The translations under genes and the position numbers were made by a program. A stretch of 30,703 bases of DNA, taken from IMG/VR virus record IMGVR_UViG_3300040801_001915, positions 1 to 30,703 of that record; one strand, 5' to 3'. The notes below the pieces were generated by a model that was given only the letters and a program-made list of their open reading frames with translations, did not search any database and had not been told where the DNA came from. Each line of letters opens with the position of its first letter. The first letter of the stretch is position 1. The stretch comes from a virus. Shown here piece by piece: positions 3,339 to 30,703 of the stretch.

Positions 3339-3344
3339 TTGCCA

Positions 3345-9472: not shown

Positions 9473-10605
9473 TGGCAGTATCGAAACCACCGATGCCAAC
9501 GCACATCGACCCGGGCAAATTGCCGGACCGGGTCTACTGGAAGGCCTATGGAAAGGGCTGCTGGTACACGTCCTGGCGCGACGAGTCAGGGAAACAGCAC
9601 TCCCAGCGCCTCGCCGGGCCCGATGCCACCCTCGCCGATCTGCACCGGGCAATGGAAGACCACCAAGGCATCCAGCGCGGCACCTTGCGCCACCTGGTGC
9701 AATCCTTCGAAGCCTCACCGCAGTTCGCCAAACTGGCCCCCGCCACACAGCGTGACTACAGGTTTTCAGCCGCGGGCCTCATCGACACCCGAATGAAGAC
9801 GGGCAGACCGCTGGGAGAAGCCAAGCTGTCGGCCTGGTCGCGACCGGTCTGTCAAACCCTGATTGACAAGATTGCCCGCGAGCGGGGACCGAGCGCCGCG
9901 GCACACGCCCTGCGATACCTCAAACGCCTGTTTCGGTGGGGAATCAACCGCGGCCACCTGACGACAAACCACGCGCAAGGTGTCGAGCCGCCCGAAGAGC
10001 GCAGGCAGCGCAAAGTCCCAACACCCGAGGTGTATGTCGCCGCCGTGGCCTACGCGAAACGCTGTGGAACCATGACAGAGCGCACCAAGGGCAGCTGCGC
10101 CCCGTACCTGTGGGCAGTGATGGAGCTGGCCTACCTGCTGCGTCTGCGCGGCGCCGAGGTGCTCGACATGAGCGACGAACGCGCCACCGAGGCCGGCGTC
10201 GTCGTCATCCGGCGCAAGGGCAGCCGCGGCAACGTCACCGCCTGGTCGCCACGCGTGCGCGCCGCCTGGGATGCGCTGACAGCCAGACGCGACGCGATCT
10301 GGCAAAAGCGGAAAATGCCGGTACCGCTGCACCCCAAGGACCGGCCGCTGGTCGTCAACGCCAGCGGCGACCCGCTGCAGCGATCGAGCCTGTCAACGGC
10401 ATGGGACAGACTGATGCGCGCCGCCGTCGAAGCCGGCCAGATCCAAAGCGACCAGGTGTTTACACTGCACGGCCTGAAACATCTCGGCATCACCAACACC
10501 GCCGGCACATGGGCCGACAAGCGTGAAGCAGGTGGTCACAAATCGGACGCGATGGTGAGTATTTACGACCATTCCGTGCCGACCGTTGAGCCGACAGAAC
10601 GGTGA
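9472..10605 (+). CDS. int: Phage integrase (tyrosine recombinase)
   Basis: Catalyses integration at the host tRNA-Lys gene. The 377-aa protein has an N-terminal arm-binding-like region (residues 1-60, WYTSWRDESGKQHSQRL), a core-binding domain (about 70-175) and a catalytic domain with Arg226 (LRLRGAE), Lys249 (RRKGSRG), His333-Gly-Leu-Lys336, His356 (GGHKS) and nucleophile Tyr365 (SIYDHS). The second catalytic Arg of HxxR is Lys here, a variant I associate with integrases preceded by DUF4224 proteins. It starts at ATG 9472, overlapping the previous stop, and ends two bases before the first putative attP arm repeat, the usual int-attP arrangement. Confidence 0.93.
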   Translation: MAVSKPPMPTHIDPGKLPDRVYWKAYGKGCWYTSWRDESGKQHSQRLAGPDATLADLHRAMEDHQGIQRGTLRHLVQSFEASPQFAKLAPATQRDYRFSAAGLIDTRMKTGRPLGEAKLSAWSRPVCQTLIDKIARERGPSAAAHALRYLKRLFRWGINRGHLTTNHAQGVEPPEERRQRKVPTPEVYVAAVAYAKRCGTMTERTKGSCAPYLWAVMELAYLLRLRGAEVLDMSDERATEAGVVVIRRKGSRGNVTAWSPRVRAAWDALTARRDAIWQKRKMPVPLHPKDRPLVVNASGDPLQRSSLSTAWDRLMRAAVEAGQIQSDQVFTLHGLKHLGITNTAGTWADKREAGGHKSDAMVSIYDHSVPTVEPTER

Positions 10606-13766: not shown

Positions 13767-16253
13767 TCAATACCTCATGATCAGGTCGTCGTTGGGCACA
13801 GCAATGGAAAACTGCGATGGCGCGACAATGACGGCGGCGTCGCGTGCGGTGTCTTCGATCTCCGGCATTTCCAGGGCAAAGCGCTCTTCGTAGAGCTCGC
13901 GCCCGGGTAGTTGCTGGGCAGCGGCGACGTTCGTGATCCACCCGAACCATTCCGGGTCATCCACGTCGTAGGTCAGCCCGCCCTTTCGAATGCCATGAAA
14001 TGCCGTCCGACCCGTGTTTTCTTCCGCCGCCGGCATCGGCTGCGGTGGCGCCTCCAGCGGCGTATCCGTCGCAGTTCCGCTACCGTTGTGCCGGGACAGC
14101 GCCAGCGTCACGCGCAGCGTCAGGTCGGCGGATTCCAGATCGAAGGTCTCTTCGAGCGCGAATACCTTGCCTTTGGCCGTCAGACCCGGTGTGTCGATTG
14201 TCAACGTCGAGTGCAGCGTGATGTCTGGCCGCCAGGGGCACTCGAAGACGATACGCCAGCCGCGCGCCCGACCGAGTATCGTGGTCCTGGCCTTGGCGAT
14301 GGCGACCCGCTGCGCGTGTTCCAGCGCGTCGCGGCCGGTTTCCTCCGCGTCGGTCGCTTCAGCTGTCCAGTCGCCGGTTGCGGGCAACAGCGCGGCACCC
14401 GCCGGCGGCCCGCCGAATGCATCGATATTCTCGTAGTCGGTGGCGTCGAACACGGCCTCGAGCCCGAAATCCTCGGCCACGCCACGTTGACCGACGGCCT
14501 CCTCGAAATCCGGCGCGAAAACGTCGATGGCGAACTGTTCCGTGATCGTCTGGGCCCAGCGTCGTGCCGCTTTCCAGGTCGCGCCCAAGCAGAACGCTGC
14601 CGCGTTGCCGGCCCATGCCCTCGGTGGATTGCAGACGCTGGCCAGCGGCCCTGGCAGATCGAGCCAATAGATATCGTTGGTCCGGGTCCACGCCGAACTA
14701 TCCGCTGCCGCACTGATCGTCGCTTTACTCGGCAGGGTCCAACCTTCGTCGAGCCAATCACAGAGATACCCGAAAAAACAGGACACGGTGATTTCCCGAT
14801 GGCGCAAGCGCACATAGCGGAAATCGAAATTCACGCGCACACGCGTTATCAGGTCGCGTAGGCTCGGCCGCTCGACCCTCAACGTGTTACCGAACCGACC
14901 CGAGTCGGTCAGGGTCAAGTCCGGCGCGCCCTTGGCCGCCCATGGTGCGGTCTGCAGGTGGCCGTGTTCGTCGATGAACAGGCAGTCGGGTGTCGTGCTC
15001 ATCCGGTCCTGTGCATACTGCCAGCCGCCCACCGAGCCCTCGAAGACATGCTCTGACCATTGACCGGGAATGGTGGCGTCGATCAGCTCGCGAGACATGC
15101 CCTCGAACCGGCCAGGCAGGTCGGCCACTGCCTCGATAACCATCTCGCCGGCGTCGGGATCGTAGGTCGCGACCGACGTTTCACCGGTAAAGCGACGCAC
15201 GCGCCAGGTCTCGATGCCGTCGACGTCCTGGCCGATGAAATCGACCTCGACGTGCTGCCGTTCGTAATCGGCCGGGTCGATATCCCCGGCAGGCGGAATG
15301 AAGGCGAACTGGCACACGTTCGAGGCCATCTCTTCGGTTTGCCGGCGCAGCGACCCAATCAGCCTGCCGACTATTGCGCCGGCAATACGCACCTCGATTC
15401 CCCAACGGGCAGCGGTACCGGTGATATGCCCAATGTCCGTGGTCTGAAGGACCAGCGGCAAGTCGGCGGCCGCGCCAGGCGTGATCGTGGACAACCTCAA
15501 CGGCAGGTCGGCAGCCGGATGGTGCAGCGTCCCGCTGAGTACGAGCGGCAGGTCCGTCGTTGGCGGCAGCCCAACCCCACTGGCCCCGTAGATCTCCTCG
15601 ATCTCCTCCAGCGATAGCGCCTTCGGAAACAGGCCGATTTCGTCATACAGGCCGTCGAACGTGCCAATCTTCAGCTGGCTGTCCGCGGCAAGACCGGGCA
15701 TCGTCGTCACGTTGCCGTTGACCAGCACACTCCCCGTCAGCTCGGCGCCATCCAGGTACAGCTTCAACACCCCGGCATCGAACGTGACCACGAACAGGTG
15801 CACGTCTGCTGTCAGGTCGGGTATACCGTCGCTGTAGCGGATCAACTCCTGCTCTGCGCCGGTCTTCATGTAGACCTGGAGCATGCCGGTCTGGAGCTGC
15901 CCCAGCGACAACGTGTCCCCGTTCGGGGCGCTCATTGCCAGCCAGCCGACATTGAAGTTGCGCTCGGTGTTGGCACGGAACAGCAACATCATCGAATAGG
16001 CCGACAGACCACTGGCGAACGACATGTTGTTCCGCAGCAGGTTGCCGCCGCTGAAACTGTCGACCTGGATTGAGCCATCGGGGTCTCCGGCGATCACGCC
16101 CGCTGTAGCGCTACCAGTGAATGTCCAGCCAGGCGCGTCGCGCCCGTTGCCGCTGGAATCGGCATAGGTGCTAGCGACGGCCGGGGCGTGCCCATCGCCA
16201 AGGCGATACCAGATGTCGGGCGAATGACTGAGGATGATGTCGCTGTAGGCCAT
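13767..16253 (-). CDS. Tail hub protein with N-terminal LamG-like lectin domain
   Basis: Large (828 aa) baseplate/tail-hub candidate in the position after tape measure and a small distal protein. Residues 1-230 form a concanavalin/LamG jelly roll (SPDIWYRLGDG, DSSGNGRDAPGW, then VTFDAGVLKLYLDGAEL, and IGTFDGLYDEIGLFPKALS). A linker follows with three DLPL(V/R)L repeats exactly 15 residues apart (Asp234, Asp249, Asp264). The remainder (about 280-828) has the mixed beta character of phage hub proteins and a Trp-rich central part. ATG 16251-16253 overlaps the previous TGA; the open frame further upstream is a shadow of the neighbouring gene. The lectin domain may bind surface glycans. Hub assignment is from gene order rather than clear motifs. 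Confidence 0.72.
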   Translation of the reverse strand: MAYSDIILSHSPDIWYRLGDGHAPAVASTYADSSGNGRDAPGWTFTGSATAGVIAGDPDGSIQVDSFSGGNLLRNNMSFASGLSAYSMMLLFRANTERNFNVGWLAMSAPNGDTLSLGQLQTGMLQVYMKTGAEQELIRYSDGIPDLTADVHLFVVTFDAGVLKLYLDGAELTGSVLVNGNVTTMPGLAADSQLKIGTFDGLYDEIGLFPKALSLEEIEEIYGASGVGLPPTTDLPLVLSGTLHHPAADLPLRLSTITPGAAADLPLVLQTTDIGHITGTAARWGIEVRIAGAIVGRLIGSLRRQTEEMASNVCQFAFIPPAGDIDPADYERQHVEVDFIGQDVDGIETWRVRRFTGETSVATYDPDAGEMVIEAVADLPGRFEGMSRELIDATIPGQWSEHVFEGSVGGWQYAQDRMSTTPDCLFIDEHGHLQTAPWAAKGAPDLTLTDSGRFGNTLRVERPSLRDLITRVRVNFDFRYVRLRHREITVSCFFGYLCDWLDEGWTLPSKATISAAADSSAWTRTNDIYWLDLPGPLASVCNPPRAWAGNAAAFCLGATWKAARRWAQTITEQFAIDVFAPDFEEAVGQRGVAEDFGLEAVFDATDYENIDAFGGPPAGAALLPATGDWTAEATDAEETGRDALEHAQRVAIAKARTTILGRARGWRIVFECPWRPDITLHSTLTIDTPGLTAKGKVFALEETFDLESADLTLRVTLALSRHNGSGTATDTPLEAPPQPMPAAEENTGRTAFHGIRKGGLTYDVDDPEWFGWITNVAAAQQLPGRELYEERFALEMPEIEDTARDAAVIVAPSQFSIAVPNDDLIMRY

Positions 16254-16777
16254 CAGATTTCCTCGGCCTCGAGCTCCCACGTGAACGCCCGGTCGCCGTT
16301 CTCGGCGGTCAGGTCGTTGACCGACAGCCAGGCGGTGATCTCCGGGTAGTAGGCAACGCCATACCCCGTGGCACTGCTGACCGGCGCGCAGGTGACGGTA
16401 TCGCCGACGAGGCTGTCGATGGCTGTCTCGACAGCCACACCGTCGACAATGGCGTGCGCGTAGGGCTCGTACCCCGCATCGCTGCGCCTGGCCGCAGGGA
16501 TCTGCACAGTGGGCGTCGCGCTGATCACGTCGCGCGGCGTCGGGCACGACAGCAGGTGCGCGGTGCGACGACTGAACCCTTGCAGACCGCCCGGCATCCA
16601 GCCCTTGCCCTGGATCCGTGTGAGCAGCTTGTCGTTGCCGGTCGACCGGATGATGCCGGTGCTGTCGGCCGTGCGGCGAAAGCTGACGTTCTCGCCGTAT
16701 TCGCTGTAGCGCTGCTCGAACTCCTGCAGCGCCAGGTGCGTGATGACGATACCGTCAATCTTCAGCGTCAGGATCAT
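16253..16777 (-). CDS. Distal tail-like protein downstream of tape measure (174 aa)
   Basis: A 174-aa protein in the slot usually held by the distal tail protein, between tape measure and hub. It begins with MILTLKIDGIVITHLALQEF, a beta hairpin followed by a tail-associated helix, and contains FRRTADSTGIIRSTGNDKLLT, typical of proteins that report or fix ring geometry at the tube end. No enzyme motif and no membrane segment. The ATG overlaps the tape-measure stop (ATGA). I do not recognise the exact family; the function is from position. Confidence 0.68.
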   Translation of the reverse strand: MILTLKIDGIVITHLALQEFEQRYSEYGENVSFRRTADSTGIIRSTGNDKLLTRIQGKGWMPGGLQGFSRRTAHLLSCPTPRDVISATPTVQIPAARRSDAGYEPYAHAIVDGVAVETAIDSLVGDTVTCAPVSSATGYGVAYYPEITAWLSVNDLTAENGDRAFTWELEAEEI

Positions 16778-18462
16778 CGGCTACCCCGTCGCGTCAGCTC
16801 GTCTTTGAGCCCGTCGGAAAAGGCGCGATCGCTGAAGCTGCTGCCCTGCCGATGGATCGGCGACACGCCTTTTGCCACCGGCGCCACCGTGGGCGGCTGC
16901 AGCGTCGCATTCAGCTGCGCCTGCATGGCCTCGACAAAGGCCTTGCCCGCCTCGGCGCCCATCTGTTTGGACTGCTCGACGAACTGTTTCATCTGCCCCT
17001 CGACTGACGCCAGCTGCGCCTTGGCGGCCTCGGTGTCGACGAGCTCGGCGTCGACCTTCTGCTCGCTGGCCGCGTTGGCGACCTTGGCTAGGCGGTCAGC
17101 CAGGTAGCCAAGCACGGCGGGCAGCTCGGTGCCCTTCTCTTTCAGCTGCCCGAGCAGATCGCCGCCCTGCTGCGCCAGGCGGATCGCCTCGTCGGCACTG
17201 CCCTGATTCAGTGCCCGCTGCGCCTGGTTGATCTGGTTGAACACGTCAGCCAGGAACACATCGCCCTTCGGTGGCGCCGTGATGTCGTCTTTCAGCTGCT
17301 TGAACTGCTGCTCGATGCTAGCCTGCTCGCGCCTGGCCGCGGCCAGCTCGGCGGTCTCGGTCTGCAGCTGCTTCTTGAGTTCTGCGGTGTTGGTCTTGTA
17401 GACCTCGGTGAGGCCGGAGACGGATTGCTTGTACTGGGCAATCGATTCCGTTTGCTCTTTACGAGCCGCCTGCTCTTCCTTGCTTTGCTCGACAGCCGAC
17501 TTTTCCGCATTCACCAGGCGGTCGCGCTCAGCAACTGCCGCTTTGAGCGCCGCCCGCTGCTCTTCTTCTGACCGGAAGTCGATATCGAAAATGCTTGTGT
17601 ACGCTTCGCCGCTCAGATTGCGCTTCAGCGATTCGATCTCTGCATCAAGTTCGGCGACACGATCACCAAGACCAAGCCGATCCATTACGTCCGACAGATT
17701 CTCGAAGAACGGCGCCAGGCTGGTGTTCCTGGCCGCCTTGACACGATTGGTGAAGTTCGTCGTCGCGTCATTGAAGCGTGCAGCCGCATCAGATTGCTGT
17801 TGATCGATGACGGCACCAAACCGGTCCGCCTCAGCGATCAGCTTCCGCAGCTCCTGGCTACCGCCCTGCAGCACCCGCACCAGGTCAACACCCTCGGTGT
17901 CGAACAGCTTGAACGCCAGACGAACCCGATCCGCTTGACTGCCGACCGCCCCAAACGCATCGGCCAGCTCCGCCATCTTGTCTTCAAGAGACAGCTGAAC
18001 GAAGCGGCGCGCATCGATGCCCAACTCTTCGAGCGCCGCCTTCGCTTCACCGGTGCCTTGTGCAGCCTCAGCCGAACGCCGAGTCATGCGCTGAATGGCC
18101 GTGGCCAGTGAACTGAATGCGACGTTGTTCCGCTCTGCTGCGTACCCAAGCGCCGACAGTTCCTCGGTGGTTACGCCGAGCTTCTGCGCCGTCTTGCCAA
18201 TGTTGTCCAGTTCGTTGGCGGTCCGTTTCAGCTGCGAAGTCAATCCACCCAGTGCGGTGATACCAATAACGAAATTACGGACGTTTGCCAGCGTCTTCGA
18301 CACCTTGCCGTACGCCGCGGATAGCTGCGAAGCATCCTTGGACACCGAATCCGCCGTGCGCCGCGACGATCGGCGGATATCCCGGTACCCGTCCATGATC
18401 TTCTGAGCTGGCTTGCTGAAGTAGTCCTTCAGCCGGTACAGCACTTCTGCGACGCGAGCCAT
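16774..18462 (-). CDS. Tape measure protein
   Basis: Sets tail length and is held inside the tail tube. The 562-aa protein is almost entirely helical, with long Ala/Glu/Gln/Lys coiled-coil stretches (residues about 270-400 and 430-520) and an N-terminal region in the usual tape-measure style (YRLKDYFSKPAQKIMDGYRD, then LDNIGKTAQKLGVTTEELSAL, and RLAFKLFDTEGVDLVRVLQ). One hydrophobic segment (VRNFVIGITALGGLTSQL, about 61-78) may help DNA entry through the inner membrane. The length suggests a fairly short siphovirus tail by the usual 0.15 nm per residue rule. ATG overlaps the gpZ stop (TAATG). No G/GT frameshift chaperone gene lies just upstream, where many siphoviruses have one. Confidence 0.92.
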   Translation of the reverse strand: MARVAEVLYRLKDYFSKPAQKIMDGYRDIRRSSRRTADSVSKDASQLSAAYGKVSKTLANVRNFVIGITALGGLTSQLKRTANELDNIGKTAQKLGVTTEELSALGYAAERNNVAFSSLATAIQRMTRRSAEAAQGTGEAKAALEELGIDARRFVQLSLEDKMAELADAFGAVGSQADRVRLAFKLFDTEGVDLVRVLQGGSQELRKLIAEADRFGAVIDQQQSDAAARFNDATTNFTNRVKAARNTSLAPFFENLSDVMDRLGLGDRVAELDAEIESLKRNLSGEAYTSIFDIDFRSEEEQRAALKAAVAERDRLVNAEKSAVEQSKEEQAARKEQTESIAQYKQSVSGLTEVYKTNTAELKKQLQTETAELAAARREQASIEQQFKQLKDDITAPPKGDVFLADVFNQINQAQRALNQGSADEAIRLAQQGGDLLGQLKEKGTELPAVLGYLADRLAKVANAASEQKVDAELVDTEAAKAQLASVEGQMKQFVEQSKQMGAEAGKAFVEAMQAQLNATLQPPTVAPVAKGVSPIHRQGSSFSDRAFSDGLKDELTRRGSR

Positions 18463-19061
18463 TATTTCAACCCCAGCGCGAATGCGATTTCGTGGTCCAT
18501 GTTCTGCTGCAGCACGGCGTTCATGCGCTCAGCGAACGCCGGCAGCGCCTTTTCGTACTCTTCGATCAGGTTCGGGCCGTACTGGATGTAGATCGGGTAC
18601 TGCTCGCGCCCCGTGCGCTTGAGCACGTGCCACTTGCCGTCGTTACGGCCGATATTGACGAACGTGCCCGGGTAAACCTGCCGGCCCTTCTGCTTGTATG
18701 GCTTGACCGCCACACCCTTCGAGCGCCCCGCCTGACCGCGACGGTAGGCGGCGGCGATCTGCGACGGCGTCATGAACTCGACCAGCTCGATCCGACGGTC
18801 GCGCACAGCCAGGCTGCCGATCAACTGGCGCTCGCTGATGACCTTGGTGCGAATGCGCTGATCGACAACGCGCTTTTTCAGGTTGATGTGCTGGCGGATC
18901 TGCTTGCTGGCCTCGGTCTTGCCCGAGCGCAGCGACTTCTTGAGCGCACGCACGGCCCCCTTGTGCGCCTTTTTCGGCGCCTTGGCGATCGCCCGCTCCA
19001 GGTCGCGCAGCTGGCGATCTGAAGCGGCGATCTCGATCGTGGGCCCCAGTGCGCGCGCCAT
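18462..19061 (-). CDS. Minor tail protein Z-like
   Basis: Matches the gpZ family of minor tail proteins. In lambda, Z is needed for correct positioning of DNA in the tail and for infectivity. The 199-aa protein is basic with an N-terminal helical segment (KAPKKAHKGAVRALKKSLRS) and the typical TEASKQIRQHINLKKRVVDQRI. A central beta part follows with YPGTFVNIGRNDGKWHVLKR and a C-terminal helix (YEKALPAFAERMNAVLQQNM). The position differs from lambda: it lies between the tail tube and the tape measure. The ATG overlaps the tail-tube stop (TGATG). Confidence 0.82.
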   Translation of the reverse strand: MARALGPTIEIAASDRQLRDLERAIAKAPKKAHKGAVRALKKSLRSGKTEASKQIRQHINLKKRVVDQRIRTKVISERQLIGSLAVRDRRIELVEFMTPSQIAAAYRRGQAGRSKGVAVKPYKQKGRQVYPGTFVNIGRNDGKWHVLKRTGREQYPIYIQYGPNLIEEYEKALPAFAERMNAVLQQNMDHEIAFALGLK

Positions 19062-19942
19062 CAGAGGATCGTCGCGTCACCCATGCGCAGCGTGCCGAAG
19101 CCAGAGCGACCGGCCGGCACATTGCTGTCCTGCAGCACCTCGGCCGCCATGTCGACGCTGGCATACTCGGCCGTGATCAGGGCGACCGACGAGGGATCGA
19201 ACACGCAACGGTTGAACAGCCCGGACATCGGCTCGCCGTTCTCTTCGTTGACCCCCTCAAAGCCGACGACATGCTGGCTCGACGCCGCCGTGGCCAGCTC
19301 GACGCGGGTATGGCCGTAGCGCGTGCCCGACACGGTGATCGGCGCGCCGTCGGGCATGCCGCCACCAGCCACGCAGTAGACACCGTTGTTGCGCACGGTG
19401 AAGTCGGTATCCGCCACAGCGGCGAACACGCCTTCGTCCTGCCAGGTCACTTCGCCGTCGACCACCGTCGAGCCGTCGGTCGGCCAGGTCGGCGCCGAGC
19501 TCGCGGCGGTACCGCCGACCGTCGCCCGGTACAGGCGACCGCCTTCGAACACCCAGCTGCCGGCGGCGTACACCGAATCGGCCACCCAGGCCGACGCATT
19601 GTGCGCCACGGTCACGGCCTGGCTGGTGTCGAGCAGATCATCGATCACGGCGACCCCACCACTGACAACAGCGGTATCGGCATTGACCGCGGCCGGGGCG
19701 GCCTCGGCCGTTTCGCCCTTCAGCGCCCGCGCCAGCGTCGTCGGGTCGAAGTTGCCACTGTTGAAGGCCAGGCGCACCGATTCGATACGCGCGAACTTGG
19801 CGGCGTTGCCGCCTCCGGTATTGCCGCTGTTGCGGCGCGTGAATTCGGAGATCGACAACTCGATCGTCAGTTCGTCCGGGTGTTCGGTTTCGACACCGTC
19901 CACCGTGATCTTGCCGACGCCTACCAGAAACTTGTCAGGCAT
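19061..19942 (-). CDS. Major tail tube protein with inserted surface domain
   Basis: Forms the tail tube. The 293-aa protein begins MPDKFLVGVGKITVDGVETE, a common tube-protein start, with a conserved beta core at the N-terminus (LTIELSISEFTRRNSG) and C-terminus (GLFNRCVFDPSSVALITAEY). In between (about residues 115-170) lies a domain with YAAGSWVFEGGRLYRATVGG, SAPTWPTDGSTV and GEVTWQD, a carbohydrate-binding-like module seen on phage surface proteins. It is therefore larger than a minimal tube protein. ATG 19940-19942 is preceded by AGGGGGA. Neighbours are the tail terminator upstream and gpZ downstream. Confidence 0.82.
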   Translation of the reverse strand: MPDKFLVGVGKITVDGVETEHPDELTIELSISEFTRRNSGNTGGGNAAKFARIESVRLAFNSGNFDPTTLARALKGETAEAAPAAVNADTAVVSGGVAVIDDLLDTSQAVTVAHNASAWVADSVYAAGSWVFEGGRLYRATVGGTAASSAPTWPTDGSTVVDGEVTWQDEGVFAAVADTDFTVRNNGVYCVAGGGMPDGAPITVSGTRYGHTRVELATAASSQHVVGFEGVNEENGEPMSGLFNRCVFDPSSVALITAEYASVDMAAEVLQDSNVPAGRSGFGTLRMGDATIL

Positions 19943-19953
19943 GACTTTTCCCC

Positions 19954-20451
19954 CTATGCATATTCAGGATCGCCAGACTTTCGGTGATGCGGGATCGCAT
20001 ACACCACACGGCCAGCTACGACGTTCTCGCCGATATCTGGCAGAAAGATTTCGTCGGACAGCCAGGCCAGGCCGCCCTGGTTGCGAATCAACAGGCGGCC
20101 GAGCGTGTCGTCGTACTGCTCGAGCGCCCGCTGAATGTCGCTGATGATGTCGATGCCGATCTGCTCACTGGCCGCATGCGCCTGCACCCGGTCGTAACCG
20201 ACAACGATCAGCTGCTGCTGGCACAGGGCCGAACCCCCACGCGGCGAGACGCGCTCGTCCGGGGCACCCTTTGCGGCGACCCGCTCACGTGTTCCCAGGA
20301 AACACGCCACCAGCGGCAGGTCGTCGACATGCGGCGCACGGCTGTCCAGCGCGACGTATTGGCCGATATCGGTACGGTAGCCGTTGGCCGAGCGAACGAC
20401 CTGCAACATCGTGCCGATCCGGTCGAGGATGCGAAACAGCTTAGGCGACAT
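19954..20451 (-). CDS. Tail terminator/completion-like protein (165 aa)
   Basis: Probable head-proximal tail terminator by position between the head-tail joining protein and the tube. The 165-aa protein starts MSPKLFRILDRIGTMLQVV, an amphipathic helix common to tail completion proteins, followed by a beta segment, a helix ASEQIGIDIISDIQRALEQY, and a basic end (IPHHRKSGDPEYA). It overlaps the head-tail gene by 11 bases and ends 11 bases before the tube start codon. The assignment rests on size, fold pattern and gene order. Confidence 0.68.
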   Translation of the reverse strand: MSPKLFRILDRIGTMLQVVRSANGYRTDIGQYVALDSRAPHVDDLPLVACFLGTRERVAAKGAPDERVSPRGGSALCQQQLIVVGYDRVQAHAASEQIGIDIISDIQRALEQYDDTLGRLLIRNQGGLAWLSDEIFLPDIGENVVAGRVVYAIPHHRKSGDPEYA

Positions 20452-20743
20452 CGATCACCCACTCGAAGGGATTGAGGCGCACCGGGCGGGCATCAATGCG
20501 CAGGGTCTCGCCGCGCAGCACGAATCGTTCGCCGACCTGCGGCTGCGGTAGTTCGCTGATGCGCACACGCACACTGGCCTTGGATCCGCGCACCGCGAGC
20601 TCCGGCCCGCTGAGCATTTCGGCCGCGCGCTGGTCTGGCAGTACGCGCACGGGATGCTGTGCGCCGCCGGCGTCGATATACATCGCATCCAGGGCGACGG
20701 CAGAGCCGTAGACCAGGCCGACCGTGAGGCTACCGACATCCAT
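20441..20743 (-). CDS. Head-tail joining protein, lambda FII-like
   Basis: Small 100-aa beta-rich protein in the head-tail connector position. The pattern GGAQHPVRVLPDQRAAE, then VRGSKASVRVRISELPQPQV, and FVLRGETLRIDARPVR ending in EWVIDVA fits the lambda FII/Gifsy-2 type attachment proteins that cap the head completion ring. Its ATG overlaps the TAA of the carboxypeptidase gene (TAATG). It is the first clear connector gene after the inserted lysis and surface-protein block. Confidence 0.72.
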   Translation of the reverse strand: MDVGSLTVGLVYGSAVALDAMYIDAGGAQHPVRVLPDQRAAEMLSGPELAVRGSKASVRVRISELPQPQVGERFVLRGETLRIDARPVRLNPFEWVIDVA

Positions 20744-23115
20744 TACGCGTGCACCGTGAGCTGGACACCGGTCTCGATCTGCAAACCGTTCGGGTGCGCG
20801 GAGTCGAACACGACGACATCGACGTCGTCGAACGTGCCCGCAGGCAGCCCCAGGCCACCGAGGCGCAGCGCCAGCACGTCGACCTCGGCACCCTGGTAGC
20901 GACCGCGCTCCGCCCAGCTGATCACGCCGCTGTCGACTTGTGCACTGTCTATCTCGGTGTCGTCATCAAGCCGCAGCAACACGCGCGAGACGTGGCCGAG
21001 GTCGCCCATGACGACCCCGTCGCCGAACAGCACCAGGGCCGCGGCGTTGTCGCGCTGATTGAAGACCGGCACGCGGACGGCATCCGCCGTGCAACCCGGC
21101 GGGCGGTCGCCAGCTATCGCCGTGAGGCGTCGGACAGTATTCGCCATCGGATTGAGATACGCCGGGGTTGCTTGGAACATCGCCACGGCAGCCGCCTGGT
21201 GCACGGCCGAGTAGTGCGACAGAAACTGCGCCACCGCCGACATCGCGGCCGCTGCGGTCGCACCGTGCGTCTCGGCGTAATCGGAACCAACCGCATAGAC
21301 ATCGCTGGCTGCCATGCCGGCAGTGGCAGCAGAGGCATGCGTCTCGGCATAGTTGAGCACCCAGCCCTCGCTGGCAATGAAGGCGGCGACACTGCCGACA
21401 GCGTGCGTCTCGCTGTAGCCACCCGCCCAGGTCTCGGCAGCTGATGCCGCTGCCGTTGCGGCCGCCTGGTGCGATTCCAGGTAATCCGCACCGACTGCGT
21501 AGGCATCGCTGGCCGCCATACCGGACGCGGTGATCGCGCCGTGGGTCTCGGCGTAATCGAGCAACCAACCTTCGCTGGCAATGAAGGCCGCGACACTGCC
21601 GGCGCCGTGCGTTTCGCCGTAACCGGGCGCCCAGGTTTCGACGGCTGAGGCGCCGGCGGTAGCGGCGGCCTGGTGCGTTTCGTTGGTATTGAAGGCCCAG
21701 GTATCGACGGCTGACATCGCGCCAGAACAGACCGCGCCGTGGGTTTCATCGCTGCCGGTGATCAGACCCGGGTAGTCGCCGGCGACAGTCCGATCGAGCA
21801 GACCGCGACCGAGCGCGGCAGCAATCAGGCCATTCTCGGTCTCATTGAAGTTCTCGCCTGTGCCTGACTCCACAACGACAGTCACAGGGCAAAGCGTAAA
21901 ATCGCCGGTGCCGGCAAAGTCCGAATCCATCCAGCCGGCGAAGCTGGTATCTATCGCAACCACGGTGATAGTTGACTGCCAGTTCGCGTCGTAGCCCCTC
22001 GCTGCTGTCAACAGCGCTTGTTCTTCAGGGCACGTTGTCGCATCAGCGTTGGCATACATTGCGACGTCGCTGCCGTCGCGGCTATGCCAGTCGAGCGCCA
22101 GATTGGCCTCAAGACCGGGGTAATGCTGCGACATGGCCGCACGCACGAGCGCATGTGATTCGAGAGAAAACCCGCCCGAATACCAGACCCGATTTGGATC
22201 CAGGTACGGGTTCCAACCAGTCTGGCCATCAGACGACTCCGGACTCCCCCGGTGCATGCCGACGTACATGCCGAGCGGGTTCAATAGCGGGAAGATCAGG
22301 AATTCCCAGCTCCCAAGCAGGTCGAAGGCCGCTTGCTGATTTATGTCCCCGCCATCCTGGGCGGAAATCAACCACTCAACGAAACGCCGATGAATTGCGG
22401 TTCCAGACCATTCGCCGGCATGTTGACCGCCTATACTGATACAGCGGCGTTTGCCGCCGGCAACCGCCCGTGAATCATCGGCAATCCGAAAACCGTAGAT
22501 CGGCGCGTTGGGGATGCTTTTCCCCCACCACATCGTCGGCGAGTCCGGCTCGATTGTTCCGATCACGCCCGGGGTCGGGTCGGTCGCGTAGCTCAGGTCC
22601 GCTTGTATCCGGTGCCCGTAGGGACTGGCCAGCACAGACGACACCAGCGCCGCCAGCACGTTCGGTGTCGTCGGGATCTGCTGCCAGATGTAGACCTGAT
22701 CCTGAGTGAACGCGCTCGCGAATTGGTACTCGTGATAAGCCCCCTGATCAGTCCCCGGGTTCGATGGGTAGTAGGGGCCGTCGAGGTCGTACGAGTAGTA
22801 AATCTCGTCCGGCGCGATGCTCAGGTAACGCTCAGCGTCCGTTGGCCGGAACTTCGGCCGCTTGCCGTTCATCCCACTGAAGCGACCGCCCCAGCCCCAA
22901 TACTGCGAAGTGTAGGCGTTGACGTAGGGCGTTAGCTGGATTCCCGGTTCGCTCGGGATCGTGTTGTCGATGACCAGCGAGCCAGGATCAATGCAGCCAC
23001 CGTGGAAGTCGTTTGTGACTGCTATCGTCGGCTGTGCCGCTGCGTCAATCCACGACGCTTCAGCCACCCGGTTGCCGCTTGCGAAACGCGGCGTGATTTT
23101 CCGCGTGTACGCCAT
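20743..23115 (-). CDS. Virion-region M14-type zinc carboxypeptidase with ETH repeats
   Basis: A 790-aa multi-domain protein I do not know from other phages. Residues 1-200 are aromatic and beta-rich. Residues 200-440 carry a complete M14 metallocarboxypeptidase signature: zinc ligands His232 and Glu235 (GGQHAGEW), Asn308-Arg309 (DPNR, substrate carboxylate), third zinc ligand His344 (LDWHS) and catalytic Glu416 (VVVESGTG). It would remove a C-terminal residue or isopeptide-linked amino acid from a peptide or cell-wall substrate. Residues 455-653 hold nine repeats of 18-24 residues starting ETH/ESH. Residues 655-790 resemble a phage structural domain (LLRLDDDTEIDSA, then LALRLGGLGLPAG and DSAHPNGLQ). 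No signal peptide. The gene lies between the LamG structural gene and the head-tail joining gene, so the protein is probably on the particle. The substrate is unknown. Confidence 0.82.
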   Translation of the reverse strand: MAYTRKITPRFASGNRVAEASWIDAAAQPTIAVTNDFHGGCIDPGSLVIDNTIPSEPGIQLTPYVNAYTSQYWGWGGRFSGMNGKRPKFRPTDAERYLSIAPDEIYYSYDLDGPYYPSNPGTDQGAYHEYQFASAFTQDQVYIWQQIPTTPNVLAALVSSVLASPYGHRIQADLSYATDPTPGVIGTIEPDSPTMWWGKSIPNAPIYGFRIADDSRAVAGGKRRCISIGGQHAGEWSGTAIHRRFVEWLISAQDGGDINQQAAFDLLGSWEFLIFPLLNPLGMYVGMHRGSPESSDGQTGWNPYLDPNRVWYSGGFSLESHALVRAAMSQHYPGLEANLALDWHSRDGSDVAMYANADATTCPEEQALLTAARGYDANWQSTITVVAIDTSFAGWMDSDFAGTGDFTLCPVTVVVESGTGENFNETENGLIAAALGRGLLDRTVAGDYPGLITGSDETHGAVCSGAMSAVDTWAFNTNETHQAAATAGASAVETWAPGYGETHGAGSVAAFIASEGWLLDYAETHGAITASGMAASDAYAVGADYLESHQAAATAAASAAETWAGGYSETHAVGSVAAFIASEGWVLNYAETHASAATAGMAASDVYAVGSDYAETHGATAAAAMSAVAQFLSHYSAVHQAAAVAMFQATPAYLNPMANTVRRLTAIAGDRPPGCTADAVRVPVFNQRDNAAALVLFGDGVVMGDLGHVSRVLLRLDDDTEIDSAQVDSGVISWAERGRYQGAEVDVLALRLGGLGLPAGTFDDVDVVVFDSAHPNGLQIETGVQLTVHA
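21155..21747 (-). repeat. Nine ETH peptide repeats with a 204-bp higher-order period
   Basis: Nine units starting (E/D)-(T/S/V)-H-(G/Q/A) of 22, 22 or 24 residues. The order repeats every three units: the ETHQ unit at 21681 is followed 204 bp on by the ESHQ unit at 21477 and again by the unit at 21273. The two 68-residue blocks are nearly the same (both contain GSVAAFIASEGW and MAASD), showing internal duplication. Confidence 0.92.
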
Positions 23116-24281
23116 TAGCTGATGTCCACCACAGTCTCTTTGCCAGCGTAGACAAGCGAGTCGCGGTGATCCGCCCCGTCGAGGTCGTACAACAGGAGGA
23201 AGCCGTCCTGACCGACAGCCAGCGCCCCGACGCTGACGTCCATCGTGTACACACCGCTGCCGTCGGTGGACTCGTTTGTGGCCTCAATAGCTGGCGCACC
23301 GGTCGGCGTTGCGCTGTCCCACCACAACGCAACGAGGTTCGTCAGGTCGGCGGCAGGCGTCGCACCGTCCGACTGATATAGGGTGAAAGAGACCCCTTCT
23401 ACTGCAGCAGGAGCGTTCGTCGTGAACTGTGCCGAACTGACTATGTTCGAGTCGTTCGCCGCCGCATCGGTGTGTACGAGGTGGCCGAAATAGTCAGTAC
23501 CTTCGGTCAGGCCGGTAAGCGGGACGGTTTGTGCACCGGTTGCTGATACCACCTGTGATGCACCAACAGGAGCAGTGCTACCACCGTCGATCAGCGACCG
23601 GGTGCTCAACGTGGGCGAATTGACAAACGTGCCGTCGTTTGCGCCCGTGCCGGAATCGGTCGCCGTCGTGCCGCTAGCCTCGTCGAGCTTGAACCACGCA
23701 ATCGGCGTCAGGCTTGCGATGAGAGTCGCATGATCGGTCGCGCCGTCTATTCCGTCGGCGTGGTTCGCCGCAATCTGCGCGGGTGACAGCGCCGAAGAAT
23801 AGATTTTCAAATCGTCGATGATCCCGACGAAAAAACGTTCGTCGGTCCAAGTGTTTTTGAACTTGGCAATCGCGTGATCGCTGTCCGCATTGGCATATGT
23901 CGTCATCCCCGGCGCGTTGTCCGTCGCGTCCTCGACGCCATTCAGGAACAGCTTTACGGTCGTTCCGTCGTATGTCGCGGCAACGTGGTACAGCGTGTCA
24001 ACTGCTAGCGCCGTCGTTCCCGGCAGCTCATAGTAGCTGGCCGCACCATGCTGGATCGTCACGCCCAATATGGCTTTCGTGCCGTCGAACGCGATATACA
24101 GGCCCGGACTGTCGCCCTGCGCCCAGATCACTTTGCGGTCAGCCCCACCCGTACCGGTCGGTAGTGCCGAAGCCTTCACCCATGCTTCAATCGAAAACGC
24201 GCCTGATCCTGCCGGGAGCGACCACGCGCCGAATTCGACGGCTTGCGTCGTACCGTTGAACGTAACCGCGCCATCGGCCAA
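23115..24281 (-). CDS. LamG domain plus Fn3-like second half, downstream of an in-frame TAG
   Basis: A 388-aa reading frame in the same frame as the preceding 261-aa gene, from which it is separated only by TAG at 24333-24335. The only near start is TTG 24281, without a good ribosome site. Residues 5-200 are a LamG jelly roll (AVTFNGTTQAVEFG, FSIEAWVKAS, then TYDGTTVKLFLNGVEDA and IIDDLKIYSSALSPAQIAA). A second LamG-like start, WFKLDEASGTTATDSG, follows. At about 236-295 comes the second half of the Fn3-like domain (SQVVSATGAQTVPLTGLTEG, HLVHTDAAANDSN), whose first half is in the upstream gene. The last 90 residues are a phage structural domain (DGSGVYTMDVSVG). Best read as the C-terminal part of one protein interrupted by a stop. 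Confidence 0.8.
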   Translation of the reverse strand: MADGAVTFNGTTQAVEFGAWSLPAGSGAFSIEAWVKASALPTGTGGADRKVIWAQGDSPGLYIAFDGTKAILGVTIQHGAASYYELPGTTALAVDTLYHVAATYDGTTVKLFLNGVEDATDNAPGMTTYANADSDHAIAKFKNTWTDERFFVGIIDDLKIYSSALSPAQIAANHADGIDGATDHATLIASLTPIAWFKLDEASGTTATDSGTGANDGTFVNSPTLSTRSLIDGGSTAPVGASQVVSATGAQTVPLTGLTEGTDYFGHLVHTDAAANDSNIVSSAQFTTNAPAAVEGVSFTLYQSDGATPAADLTNLVALWWDSATPTGAPAIEATNESTDGSGVYTMDVSVGALAVGQDGFLLLYDLDGADHRDSLVYAGKETVVDIS

Positions 24282-24332
24282 CGCGTCTTCGCCCGCCTTG
24301 ATCTGGTCGATGGTAGGGGTCCGAACAGACAG

Positions 24333-24335
24333 CTA
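24333..24335 (-). other. In-frame TAG splitting one structural gene
   Basis: The frame from 25118 to 23115 is open except for this TAG (context GCT TAG CTG). Translation beyond it gives LSVRTPTIDQIKAGED, which continues the Fn3-like domain cut at GTLYAIA. It may be a nonsense mutation, a sequencing error, or a site of partial readthrough. Confidence 0.85.
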
Positions 24336-25118
24336 AGCGATTGCGTACAGCGTCCCGTTGGCCTCGTCGGTTGTCGCGCCGACGTTTGCCGTCGTGGTCC
24401 CCGTGGCGGCTCCGGTAGGGGCTGACAGCACAGGGGCCGTAACGTCTCCGCCACCTCCGGTGGTGTAGAGTGTGACCGTGTCGCCGTTAGTCGCCGCCAG
24501 CACGTCCAGCACGTCGTATGCCGCACCGGCTACGAAGGTGAACAGCCCGGCCCAGCCGACTCCAGCGATGGTTGCGTCAGTGAGCTGATAGCTGACGAAC
24601 AGTGACAGGTCGGACGCATCGTAGACGTCAACTTTGAACGTGCTGCCGCTCGCGGCCGCCTTGACCCAATAAAGACCCGTTTGCGGTGAAGGATTCGGCC
24701 CGTAGGTCGATGACCCAATGGCAGCGCCGCCGGAGTAGCGGTAGATCCGCGTCCTGTACGCCGATGCCGAATCATGCGTGATCTGAACGACTTGTCCGTT
24801 TTCAGTCGTCGGGGTGCCTGACCCACGAACCGCGAACCCTGGACCGTTTTCACCCGGTGCCATCGTATAGCGAAACAGGCCAGCAATCTCGATCTGGTCG
24901 TTGTTCGCATCCGCATCGAGCGCATCAAGCGACAGCAAGGAGCGCACGTTCTGGCTTTGCGTGAAACGGAGAGCTTTCCCCCCCTGACCTTCGGCGTCAG
25001 CAACGATCTCCATCGTGGCGTTCGCGCCGGTTTGGTAATCCCATCGCCGAGTCCATCCGGCAATGTCGGTTTTTACGCCGAGCGATTCTGCGCTGAAGTC
25101 GGCCTGGTACTGGCCCAT
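24333..25118 (-). CDS. Lectin-like structural protein, N-terminal part of split gene
   Basis: A 261-aa virion-region protein. Residues 1-215 look like a concanavalin-type jelly roll (MGQYQADFSAESLG, YRTRIYRYSGGAAIGSS, then YWVKAAASGSTFKVDVYDAS, and GVGWAGLFTFVAGAAYDVLD). Residues 225-261 are the first half of an Fn3-like repeat common in phage structural proteins (DVTAPVLSAPTGAATGTTTA, then GATTDEANGTLYAIA), which is cut by TAG. ATG 25116-25118 has GAGG eight bases upstream. If the stop is read through, the product would be about 667 aa and end at 23115. The neighbours suggest a surface protein on head or tail that binds sugar. Confidence 0.78.
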   Translation of the reverse strand: MGQYQADFSAESLGVKTDIAGWTRRWDYQTGANATMEIVADAEGQGGKALRFTQSQNVRSLLSLDALDADANNDQIEIAGLFRYTMAPGENGPGFAVRGSGTPTTENGQVVQITHDSASAYRTRIYRYSGGAAIGSSTYGPNPSPQTGLYWVKAAASGSTFKVDVYDASDLSLFVSYQLTDATIAGVGWAGLFTFVAGAAYDVLDVLAATNGDTVTLYTTGGGGDVTAPVLSAPTGAATGTTTANVGATTDEANGTLYAIA

Positions 25119-25133
25119 CGACAGATCCTCTTA

Positions 25134-25496
25134 TCAGTTGCAGGAGAGGTCGATGTCTCCCACACCGAACGTCATCGTCGCGCCTTCGATCGACATGTCG
25201 CGCGTCGCGTCCAGTGCGTCGGACGAAATCAGGCTGCCGCCGGAGCTCGCCGAGAACAGCGCCGAGTAGTTCACGCCGGCCTGCCAGCCACCCGCGCCGA
25301 CGGTGAATACGTGCGGCCCGCTGGTATTGCTACGCACACCGGCCGCAGCCGCGCCGAGCGTGACCGGGATTCGCGCATAGCCGGCCCCGCTGCACTCGGC
25401 ACCGGCGCCGGCCGGGTCACCGACGAACAGTGCCAGGTAACCCGTGGCAGGCAGCGCGCCGAGCATGTTGTTACGATACGTTTCTTCGATTGGCAT
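25134..25496 (-). CDS. Phage structural protein, tail-fibre-like (120 aa)
   Basis: A 120-aa Gly/Ala/Ser-rich protein beginning MPIEETYRNNMLGALPATGY, with ALFVGDPAGAGAECSGAGYAR, a pattern I associate with small phage virion proteins often called tail fibre or Gp80-like. The rest is beta-rich, as in trimeric or jelly-roll proteins. It has the strongest ribosome site in the region (AAAGGAGG, six bases before ATG), so it is probably made in large amounts and could be a decoration or fibre subunit. It lies between the lysis genes and the lectin gene. Confidence 0.68.
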   Translation of the reverse strand: MPIEETYRNNMLGALPATGYLALFVGDPAGAGAECSGAGYARIPVTLGAAAAGVRSNTSGPHVFTVGAGGWQAGVNYSALFSASSGGSLISSDALDATRDMSIEGATMTFGVGDIDLSCN

Positions 25497-27661: not shown

Positions 27662-29455
27662 TTATGCGTTCTTGGCGAACGACTCGGCATGGCGGATCGC
27701 AACGTCGCAGTCCTGGAACACGCGCAGGACGAGACCGCCGGAGGCCGCCTTTGCAGCCTCGTCCGGTTTCACGTCGAGCACGCCCCACTGGCCGACGATG
27801 ACCTGGCTGAAATCGCCGAACAGCAGCGTGTTCGCCGGCAACTGCGTGCTGGTCCGTGCGCTGTAGCCGTTGACGACGTTGCCCTCGGAGCAGATGAAGA
27901 TGCCGCTGCCGGAATCCTTCGGCGTGCCCTTCATCTGCGCGCGCACGCCAGGCGTGGTCACCCAGCTCAGCGCACCGTCCAGGGCGTTGGCGGTTTCGAG
28001 CGCGGCCTCGTACTGCAGCACCTCCAACCAATCCGGCACACCCGGCGCGGTGATCGTCACCGTGCCGACGCCGGCGGCGTTGAGGATACCCATAGGCTCC
28101 TTGACGTTGTCGCCGTCGAACACGGCCAGGTCGATCGCCAGCGCGATGCCGCTGATCAGGTCGTTACGCACCATCTGCTCGACAGACGGGCTCGACTGCA
28201 TCAGCAGCTTGCGCGTCATCGGCACGGCGCCAGCGACGGTATGCGGCGTGAGCGTCACGGCACCGGTCGACGGATCGCTGTCGGTGACGTCTTCGTCTTC
28301 GTTCAGCCAGTAGAACGTCGCCGAGCCGGTCAGCTTTGGAATGCTGACGTTACCGACCAGGCCGGGCAGCATCTGCACGCCGGCAGCCATCGCGACCGAG
28401 CGCGCGCGCAAGGCGTCGATGAACAGGTCGCCACGGTGATCGGTACCGACCAGGGTGCCACCGGCCGCCGGCGTACCGGCCGCCAGATCACGCTGCACTT
28501 CCAGTGGCACGTAGAAGCCCTTGGCGTCGCGGCCGAGCCGCTCGGCCACGGCGCGGGAGCATTCGAGCTCGAAGCCGGCCTTCTTCCAGTTGTTGGTCAG
28601 GAACGCGTGGGCCGCCCGCACGATCGAGAACTCCTGCACCTCGGCGCGCACCAGGCCGAGCTCCGACGGCGAACTGACACCCGGCTGCGCATCCTGCCGC
28701 TCGCGCAGCATGCGCCAGACCTCGCCACGAAACTCTTCGTACGGCTTGCCGAACGCGATGAAGTCGTCGCGCATGCGGTCGATACCGAGTTCCGGTGCCC
28801 GCTTGTGCGCATAGTCGCCGAGCTCGCGGATGTTGATCTCGTCACGCGAGACAGAGGCCGTCTCGACGGCAGGCGTGTTGGGTTTGGCTGCCGAACGCTG
28901 AGTGTCGACAGACTCTTGCTGGTGTTCAGCAGTCATAGAGTTTTCCTCATTTTGAGTTTCACGTGCGGACGACGGCGTTTGTGCCTTCGCCCGGTTGATG
29001 CCGACCGATTGGTCGGCGCCTTCGTCGACCAGGCTGACCTCACGCGGACGCCAGTTGATCGCAACAATGCGGTCCGCCTCTTCGCGGATCGCGTAGATAG
29101 ATGCCCCGACACTGGTGTCGGTGAGGATGCCGTCCTGCGCATCGCGGTAGAGCTCGCGGCCACGCGGGTTGGCCGAGAAGCGCATGACGCCGCGCAGCCG
29201 GTTGCCGTCGAGCTGGATATCGGTCACACGCCCGATCGGCACGGCGCGCCGATGCATTTCATGTACCGGGATACCGCGATCGGCCGCCAGGGTGAGGTCG
29301 ACAGCCGACGGATCCATGCTGAGCTCGACCGGCCCCAGGTACGGATCGGCGACCAAGTTGTCGCTGGCGAAGCTGACCGGGATCGTCAGTGCCTCGGCAT
29401 CGGACTCGGCGCGTTCGAGCGTCAACGGGATTGTCAGTTGCTTTTCGGTAGTCAT
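27662..29455 (-). CDS. Prohead protease-major capsid protein fusion (HK97 type)
   Basis: One 597-aa protein that combines the assembly protease and the major capsid protein. Residues 10-160 are an HK97-type (S78) prohead protease with His65/His68 (GIPVHEMHRRAVPIGR), Ser115 (LTDTSVGAS) and the typical WRPREVSLVDEGADQS. Residues about 160-270 are a charged, helical scaffold-like region. Residues 270-597 are the HK97-fold capsid subunit (VQMLPGLVGNVSIPKLTG, MTRKLLMQSSPSVEQMVRND and EPMGILNAAGVG), ending RHAESFAKNA. ATG 29453-29455 overlaps the portal stop (ATGA). An internal ATG at 28936 (Met174) with GAGG eight bases upstream would give a 424-aa scaffold-capsid form. Confidence 0.92.
   Translation of the reverse strand: MTTEKQLTIPLTLERAESDAEALTIPVSFASDNLVADPYLGPVELSMDPSAVDLTLAADRGIPVHEMHRRAVPIGRVTDIQLDGNRLRGVMRFSANPRGRELYRDAQDGILTDTSVGASIYAIREEADRIVAINWRPREVSLVDEGADQSVGINRAKAQTPSSARETQNEENSMTAEHQQESVDTQRSAAKPNTPAVETASVSRDEINIRELGDYAHKRAPELGIDRMRDDFIAFGKPYEEFRGEVWRMLRERQDAQPGVSSPSELGLVRAEVQEFSIVRAAHAFLTNNWKKAGFELECSRAVAERLGRDAKGFYVPLEVQRDLAAGTPAAGGTLVGTDHRGDLFIDALRARSVAMAAGVQMLPGLVGNVSIPKLTGSATFYWLNEDEDVTDSDPSTGAVTLTPHTVAGAVPMTRKLLMQSSPSVEQMVRNDLISGIALAIDLAVFDGDNVKEPMGILNAAGVGTVTITAPGVPDWLEVLQYEAALETANALDGALSWVTTPGVRAQMKGTPKDSGSGIFICSEGNVVNGYSARTSTQLPANTLLFGDFSQVIVGQWGVLDVKPDEAAKAASGGLVLRVFQDCDVAIRHAESFAKNA
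28934..28950 (-). promoter_or_regulatory. Internal ribosome-binding site and start inside the protease-capsid gene
   Basis: GAGGAAAACTCT precedes an in-frame ATG (28934-28936). Initiation here would make capsid precursor without the protease, giving the excess of capsid over protease that assembly needs, as lambda does with C/Nu3. Confidence 0.6.
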
Positions 29456-30703
29456 GCATCAGGCTCCTGTTTGGGCTGCGGCCACTGATCCGCCGGCGGC
29501 ATCTTGTCGGCCTCCAGACGATCGAGGTCGCGGCGCAGTTCGCTCCACACGTCGTCGGGATTGTTGCCGTCCTGCCGTATCAGGCTGGAGATCGAACGAC
29601 GGCGCAGCAGCACCGCCATCAGCGCGGCCTGCTCGTCCTTGGTGGGATCGACCGGCGCCCAGCGGCGAGGTTGGAAGGTAGCGTGTTGAAACTGCCGCAG
29701 GCGTGTCAGATCGAGCGATGCACCGTTCTTCTGCCCGAGCAACCCACGGCGCGCGGCGTAGGCCAGCCAGCGGCGGTAGATCGGCTGCACGAACCACTGC
29801 ACGTACCAGTCCTGCAGCAGCATCCACAGATCGCGCTCGATCTGTGCGCCGTAGCGCAGGCTGGTGTAGTTCACACCTTCGAGGTCATTGGCACCGGTGT
29901 TGTAGTTGATGCACAGGCCCGCTGTGATCCCGCGCAACGCCTCTTTGACGAACTCACCGTGATCGGTGTTTGGCCAGGCCCAGTCCATCGGCTGCAGGTA
30001 CATGCCATATGGCGGCAGGTCGACCTCGCCGGCGGCAATATCCTGCGTCAGCTGACCCTGCTCTTTGACGCCTTTCGGCAACTCGCCAGGGTCCGCCCAT
30101 TCTTCGTACCGGTACTGCGCCGCTTTCGTCGCCGACTGCCTGGCCGCCGTGATCGCGGCGTCCTCGTAGCCTTCGAGCATCGCCATGCGACGAATCGCCG
30201 TGGACGCCCACGGCATACCACGCGACTGCCAGGCCCACTCGGGCAGGTACAGGTGCACGATGTCGTCGGCCACGACACGCTCGCGCTGATTGGCGCCGGC
30301 GCGGTAGGTGCTGGCGAGGGGCTGTAACGCCTCTGGGAAAAAGTGGTAAGCGACCGGGCGCCGATGTCGATTGAACTCGACGCCCATGCGCACGACGTTG
30401 CCATTGGGCAGCACGTCGTTGTAGTCCATGTCGAGCGCCTCGGCATCGATCAGCTCGACCCCGAACTTGGTTGGCGTTCCTGATGTTTCCTCGTGGATTC
30501 GCACGAGCACTTCGCCGTCCTGCGCCGTCAGCCGTACCAACAGGCGGTCTAGACCGTTCCGCGTGTGCTGACCACAGAGCGTCCAGTTGCCACGCTCAGA
30601 CTGTTCGGCCCAGAGCTCCTCAATCCGCACAGCCAGCGCTTCGTCCAGCTTGCCGTTGACGCGCCTCGGCTGCGCCTGCACCACAACCCCGGTCGATCCG
30701 ATC
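29452..30703 (-). CDS. Portal protein, lambda gpB-like, cut by the window edge
   Basis: Forms the dodecameric ring through which DNA enters and leaves the head. The visible 416 residues match the lambda B family: KLDEALAVRIEELWAEQSER, then DGEVLVRIHEE, DIVHLYLPEWAWQSRGMPWA with STAIRRMAMLEGYEDAAITA, and the strong EALRGITAGLCINYNTGAND followed by NYTSLRYGAQIERD. The frame is open to position 30702 (IGSTGVVVQAQ read inward), and family members have roughly 100 more N-terminal residues, so the gene starts outside the window. Its stop overlaps the protease-capsid ATG. The terminase genes should lie just beyond the edge. Confidence 0.92.
   Translation of the reverse strand, partial: IGSTGVVVQAQPRRVNGKLDEALAVRIEELWAEQSERGNWTLCGQHTRNGLDRLLVRLTAQDGEVLVRIHEETSGTPTKFGVELIDAEALDMDYNDVLPNGNVVRMGVEFNRHRRPVAYHFFPEALQPLASTYRAGANQRERVVADDIVHLYLPEWAWQSRGMPWASTAIRRMAMLEGYEDAAITAARQSATKAAQYRYEEWADPGELPKGVKEQGQLTQDIAAGEVDLPPYGMYLQPMDWAWPNTDHGEFVKEALRGITAGLCINYNTGANDLEGVNYTSLRYGAQIERDLWMLLQDWYVQWFVQPIYRRWLAYAARRGLLGQKNGASLDLTRLRQFQHATFQPRRWAPVDPTKDEQAALMAVLLRRRSISSLIRQDGNNPDDVWSELRRDLDRLEADKMPPADQWPQPKQEPDA

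Follow-up and report, generated by a model that had tools for sequence, protein, structure and literature searches.

The M14 gene and its setting in the virion module

The window analysed here is a viral stretch of 30,703 nucleotides. The 790-residue open reading frame proposed at 20743-23115 was borne out, with an ATG start, and its product is named P0001; it lies on the minus strand, a detail missing from the original prediction. As had been described, the gene sits among head and tail genes, with the capsid gene on one side and connector and tail genes on the other. The genes of this module, with the parts of P0001 listed below its own entry, are as follows.

29452..30684, minus strand: portal protein, lambda family (PF05136, 1.3e-56)
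27662..29455, minus strand: prohead protease-major capsid fusion in one ORF (PF05065; NF045541, TIGR01554)
25134..25496, minus strand: protein like the GP4 head-fibre gp80 and the phrog_240 head protein (PF23140, 1.8e-13; phrog_240)
24333..25118, minus strand: upstream part of the reading frame of the LamG ORF, split off by an in-frame TAG
23115..24281, minus strand: LamG/ConA-like lectin-domain protein (PF13385, 1.7e-24)
20743..23115, minus strand: M14 carboxypeptidase protein P0001, 790 aa (ORF and PF00246)
22696..23028, minus strand: N-terminal beta domain of P0001, aa 30-140, equivalent to the N-domain of cytosolic carboxypeptidases (profile and fold match)
21766..22668, minus strand: M14 catalytic domain, aa 150-450 (PF00246, AF2 pLDDT, Foldseek match to 4b6z)
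22411..22422, minus strand: HAGE, with zinc ligands H232 and E235
22249..22251, minus strand: R289, the Arg127 equivalent, within NPLGMYVGMHR
22189..22194, minus strand: N308-R309, the Asn144-Arg145 equivalents, within DPNRVW
22084..22086, minus strand: H344, third zinc ligand
21868..21870, minus strand: E416, equivalent of the catalytic Glu270
21145..21750, minus strand: nine repeats of 22 or 24 residues with the ETH motif, aa 456-657
20746..21144, minus strand: C-terminal region, aa 658-790, relationship not recognised, possible anchor (no matches; low pLDDT)
20441..20743, minus strand: lambda gpFII-type head-tail joining protein (PF05354, 4.4e-8; NF049848, 5.4e-12, over cut-off)
19061..19942, minus strand: major tail (tube) protein with Ig domain (phrog_807)
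18462..19061, minus strand: tail completion/Neck1 protein (phrog_27)
16774..18462, minus strand: tape measure protein (phrog_9483)

The gene order around P0001 is therefore LamG, M14, gpFII, with the lectin-domain gene directly upstream and the joining-protein gene directly downstream, and the three are coupled by TAATG overlaps at both ends of P0001, where its start overlaps the stop of the LamG gene and its stop overlaps the start of the gpFII-type gene. An origin of P0001 as a host gene or contamination was considered and rejected, given these junctions on both sides and the head and tail genes all round.

All of the residues of the predicted M14 site (H232, E235, N308, R309, H344 and E416) were found in P0001, and R289, the Arg127 equivalent, is a further active-site residue. 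The protein thus carries the features that define an M14 metallocarboxypeptidase, namely the HxxE motif and third histidine, the catalytic glutamate, and the Arg127 and Asn144-Arg145 equivalents. Its match to PF00246 (E=1.4e-9) lies far beyond chance, as the score of 38.5 bits is to be compared with a cut-off of 21.6. In the AF2 model, residues 30-450 mostly have pLDDT values of 75-95, with dips below 60 at residues 171-180, 351-360, 381-390 and 401-410. Inspection by eye showed no signal peptide, in agreement with what had been noted. The nine ETH repeats that had been described are present as nine units of 22 or 24 residues, though the exact ETH motif stands in only seven of these, with ESH in one and AVH in another. 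The phage structural domain that had been assigned to the C-terminus was not recovered: residues ~645-790 gave no match in Pfam, PHROGs or INPHARED, and the confidence of the model is low there. This C-terminal region may serve as an anchor.

Two features of the lectin-like genes in the window may be recorded here. The in-frame TAG (GCT TAG CTG) lies at 24282-24335 on the minus strand, between the ORF at 24333-25118 and the LamG ORF at 23115-24281; the same frame continues open on both sides of it, with an Fn3-like stretch that apparently extends beyond it. Read-through of this codon, a nonsense mutation and an error in the sequence are possible readings. A further LamG domain is present in a 926-residue ORF (13767-16547, minus strand) downstream of the tape measure region, so that at least two virion genes of the window phage encode lectin-like domains.

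Relatives, their architectures and their neighbourhoods

A designed DNA pattern, NPxGxxxGxxR followed by NRxW, was used to search IMG/VR together with 84,980 species genomes and yielded about 18 distinct homologues, mostly from uncultured phages. One of these (L110), whose M14 protein has 583 residues, belongs to a prophage deep within a Nitrosospira sp. Nl5 contig of 439 kb, the same copy also having been found as viral contig L039; further homologues come from contigs that were binned as Lautropia, Chloroflexi, WWE3 and Patescibacteria. No PHROG was matched by any of the 19 family members, and tblastn searches against the 50,697 phage genomes of INPHARED gave no matches, whether with P0001 and five relatives or with the catalytic part and the C-terminal region of P0001 as separate queries. 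Neither P0001 nor the tape measure protein led to relatives when used for automatic peptide-pattern searches, and a query with the capsid protein returned three phage contigs, all of them without M14. The plasmid matches that were examined were rejected as relatives, being ordinary CPA-type or chromosomal-type M14 genes rather than phage genes. Across ~1,170 genomes from the class, order and phylum of two proteobacterial hosts there were no further phage-type copies, only chromosomal genes for cytosolic carboxypeptidases (CCPs); the phage-type M14 gene is rare in bacterial genomes.

The partners of the enzyme recur among these relatives. L019, L027, L029 and L086 have LamG fused to M14, and in the window, L045 and L119 it is encoded next door. 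In most lineages the enzyme is followed by a repeat of mostly 22 residues, the sequence of which has diverged while the period has been kept, and the ETH repeats are the version of this element found in the window. In L045 the M14 chain ends in a lambda gpFII-type head-tail joining domain (PF05354, 1.8e-7; phrog_82, 9e-7), and the stretch between the M14 and gpFII parts offers no credible start codon. The LamG, M14 and FII trio, which in the window consists of separate neighbours, is thus partly fused in L045 in the same order. In phage lambda, gpFII is a protein of 117 residues that forms a hexameric ring in the neck and has no enzyme attached (PMC10721106), whereas an M14 domain adjoins it in the window and is fused to it in L045.

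The gpFII fusion was seen in this one relative only. In L039 the order is capsid, further genes, M14, a 100-residue protein, head-tail adaptor, tail terminator, tail tube and tape measure, and in L117/L118 it is capsid, M14, adaptor and terminator; Hc3 lies near M14 in L018, terminase and portal in L016, an SPP1-type portal in L116 and a capsid gene in L109. The neighbours of M14 are therefore virion genes throughout, though not always those of the neck, and with a single gpFII fusion and capsid, portal or terminase neighbours elsewhere, the attachment site may differ among phages. A separate observation concerns the M14 protein of L014 (12782-13849, minus strand), in which the N-terminal part looks tail-fibre-like by eye, with no PHROG match, and M14 is at the C-terminal tip.

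Relationship to cytosolic carboxypeptidases and to other phage enzymes

A profile built from 19 relatives and compared with the PDB placed bacterial CCPs at the top (3l2n at 2.2e-27, with 3k2k, 4b6z and 4a37), human CCP5 next and the pancreatic types well behind. In agreement with this, the AF2 model of P0001 matched chain C of 4b6z, the CCP of B. cenocepacia (BcCCP), with a Foldseek value of 1.2e-21 and a TMt of 0.79, over about 440 columns that include both the N-domain and the catalytic domain, and the profile match to 3k2k and 4b6z begins at their residues 24-25. The profile and fold alignments thus cover the arrangement that marks the cytosolic (M14D) subfamily, a CCP N-domain followed by the carboxypeptidase domain. 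PF18027, an N-domain found only in CCPs, was recognised by Pfam in five of the 19 relatives, with P0001 on its own falling below the threshold. A maximum-likelihood tree separates 17 of the 18 phage sequences from the bacterial CCPs as a single clade (94/89); the window sequence belongs to this clade (95/94), and L029 is placed between it and the bacterial enzymes. Because the phage sequences form a clade of their own rather than grouping with the bacterial CCPs, we label them an M14D-like sister lineage and not CCPs. The comparison with M14 subfamilies that had been called for is thereby answered: by profile search, predicted fold and tree, P0001 is M14D (cytosolic)-like, and not of the DL-endopeptidase (M14C) or pancreatic type.

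With the bacterial CCPs (4b6z or BcCCP, 3k2k, 3l2n, and 4a37 or PaCCP) P0001 shares the N-domain and carboxypeptidase domain, the zinc ligands, and the Arg127/Asn144/Arg145 and Glu270 equivalents. It departs from them in the CCP motif NPDG, which is NPLG in P0001 and NPxG in the relatives, and the repeats, lectin modules and virion-gene setting are features of the phage proteins that the bacterial CCPs do not have. The CCP lineage is that of the tubulin deglutamylases, and its enzymes are elsewhere known from the cell interior.

The relatives are very diverged, with about 13-26% pairwise identity to the first rows of the alignments. H232, E235 and H344 are invariant in all 18 phage sequences, the window included, and the position of E416 is occupied by glutamate in 17 and by aspartate in one. 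The Arg127/Asn144/Arg145 equivalents are likewise invariant in the 18; these columns (R289, N308 and R309 in P0001), however, were fixed by the search pattern and are unusable as evidence of conservation. The conservation of H232, E235, H344 and E416 is independent evidence, since those columns lie outside the pattern. The sequence with aspartate at the expected position of the catalytic glutamate is L027 (3690-5594), the M14 domain of which is possibly a pseudo-enzyme.

In BcCCP, Lys330 and Ser329 of the S1' pocket favour acidic residues, Asn321 replacing the lysine in PaCCP (PMC3940198). At the corresponding stretch P0001 appears to have Ala-Gly before the matching Trp, and the relatives are varied, in a part of the alignment that is uncertain. 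The Ser-Lys/Asn pair associated with glutamate recognition therefore appears, subject to that alignment, to be lost in P0001, and a preference for glutamate is not to be assumed. No substrate is known for the bacterial CCPs themselves, and a test substrate with glutamate was cleaved only weakly by BcCCP (PMC3940198).

M14 domains have been met in the structural modules of phages before. The zinc carboxypeptidase domain of Clostridium phage phiCP24R was presented as lacking an earlier report from viruses (PMC9234517), and gp85 of Bacillus phage Moonbeam, encoded beside baseplate and tail genes, is annotated as M14. As in P0001, the domain is encoded by a phage in both cases, and a phage M14 domain as such is therefore not new. 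The profile of our family (A3) gave no match to Moonbeam gp85, which lies outside the phage clade in the tree, and P0001 is not of the gp85 type. The statement that no phage protein with this domain order had been described accordingly fits the searchable record, with the qualification that phage M14 domains had already been reported; a search of open-access papers for CCP or M14 enzymes in phage particles gave no earlier description of this kind.

A further comparison is offered by the poly-gamma-glutamate hydrolases PghP and PghL (phage phiNIT1; MEROPS M86), phage zinc enzymes with a carboxypeptidase-like fold that are directed at a host-surface polypeptide (PMC6506827). PghL cuts gamma-PGA internally and has His77/Thr79/Ser80 in place of Arg127/Asn144/Arg145 (PMC6506827), whereas P0001 keeps R289, N308 and R309. 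P0001 thus lacks the replaced Arg/Asn/Arg set that marks the M86 type, and Pfam gave no PghP-type match to it.

A putative particle-displayed carboxypeptidase

We propose that P0001 may be a virion appendage protein, the business end of which would be an active zinc metallocarboxypeptidase. The 22-residue repeats would bear the enzyme domain, the product of the adjacent upstream LamG gene would be its lectin-like partner, and its anchorage would lie in or close to the head-tail neck, beside the gpFII ring. When the particle meets a cell, a glycan or protein of the cell surface would be bound by the lectin module, and the carboxypeptidase would remove C-terminal residues from exposed peptides, whether of surface proteins, peptidoglycan stems or polyamino-acid material, a trimming that could ease adsorption or passage. 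To this account as a whole, with an active enzyme on the particle near the neck, a LamG partner and host-surface C-termini as targets, we give about an even chance of being right. That the protein is displayed on the virion, sits at its neck and is active is what we infer, and host-surface peptides as the substrate are a guess. The particle-borne carboxypeptidase of the original prediction is still the best reading and is now partly supported, having been strengthened by the gpFII fusion and by the recurrent head and connector neighbourhoods. For a carboxypeptidase with a complete catalytic set, lectin modules and repeat arms, and ties to neck and head genes, it is also the simplest.

Several of these observations can be read otherwise. 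The position of P0001 between capsid and connector genes, the M14-gpFII fusion in L045 and the lack of a signal peptide would also suit a morphogenesis enzyme, one that during assembly trims head, neck or fibre proteins of the phage itself at their C-termini and stays in the particle or not. A prohead protease is already encoded, however, fused to the capsid protein, lambda-type modules manage without an M14 enzyme, and fused lectin domains and long repeats would be needless for an assembly peptidase; we consider this explanation unlikely. The enzymatic role would be unchanged if P0001 sat not at the neck but on the head, decorating the capsid surface or forming a head fibre, a placement that might be read from the upstream gene at 25134-25496, which resembles GP4 head-fibre gp80 and the phrog_240 head protein, and from the capsid gene that lies a few genes upstream of M14 in L118 and L039. 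Against this, gpFII is the only physical link seen, and no similarity to the gp80-like protein was detected in the N-terminal part, the repeats or the C-terminal part of P0001; we regard placement on the head as improbable.

It may instead be that the M14 domain has become a fibre head that binds peptides or C-termini, hydrolysis not being its role. The aspartate in place of the catalytic glutamate in L027 and the CCP S1' residues that appear not to be kept are consistent with such a module, and M14 pseudo-enzymes exist, Ecm14 being an example (PMC7706225). Yet the zinc ligands are invariant and the catalytic glutamate is retained in 17 of 18 very diverged sequences, a pattern that would be difficult to account for if catalysis were not under selection, and we regard a purely binding role as rather improbable. 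Eukaryotic CCPs remove glutamates from tubulin, and P0001 might by analogy act inside the host, after infection or in the lysogen, stripping glutamates off a host protein such as polyglutamylated ribosomal protein S6. The closest relatives are indeed cytosolic and a signal peptide is absent, but the operon-like TAATG coupling on both sides within the virion module and the gpFII and lectin-domain fusions of the relatives speak against an intracellular enzyme, as does the apparent, alignment-dependent loss of the CCP S1' Ser-Lys/Asn pair (PMC3940198); we hold this to be very improbable.

Within the favoured account of a particle-displayed carboxypeptidase, the hexameric gpFII ring in the neck of lambda (PMC10721106) suggests a possible six-copy collar. 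P0001 and its relatives would then represent a new class of neck (collar) appendage, ring-anchored and possibly present in six copies via gpFII, that combines a cytosolic-type carboxypeptidase, recruited to the virion exterior, with LamG lectin modules and 22-residue repeat arms and processes host-surface peptides. We offer this more specific model tentatively, as a possibility that is more likely to be wrong than right.

Most enzymes known from phage particles are glycan depolymerases or wall lysins, and, to our knowledge, an enzyme at the phage neck is not generally expected. If the proposal is true, an exopeptidase from the deglutamylase lineage, borne on the virion, would represent a different tool for entry, placed at the neck. 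It would also suggest a use outside the cell for a family whose bacterial members have no known substrate. By the searches made, the family is missing from PHROGs and INPHARED, yet a named bacterium, Nitrosospira sp. Nl5, carries it in a prophage.

The remainder of the window contributes minor observations. As it encodes a repressor and recombinases, the window is probably a fragment of a temperate phage. A full integron integrase (8292-9266, plus strand; TIGR02249, 393 bits against a cut-off of 265) directly adjoins a second tyrosine recombinase at 9472-10605, and an IntI-type gene is unusual in a temperate phage. Next to the LexA/cI-like repressor at 3288-4037, the window encodes a small ankyrin-repeat protein (4060-4665, plus strand), the N-terminus of which has a membrane-like segment.
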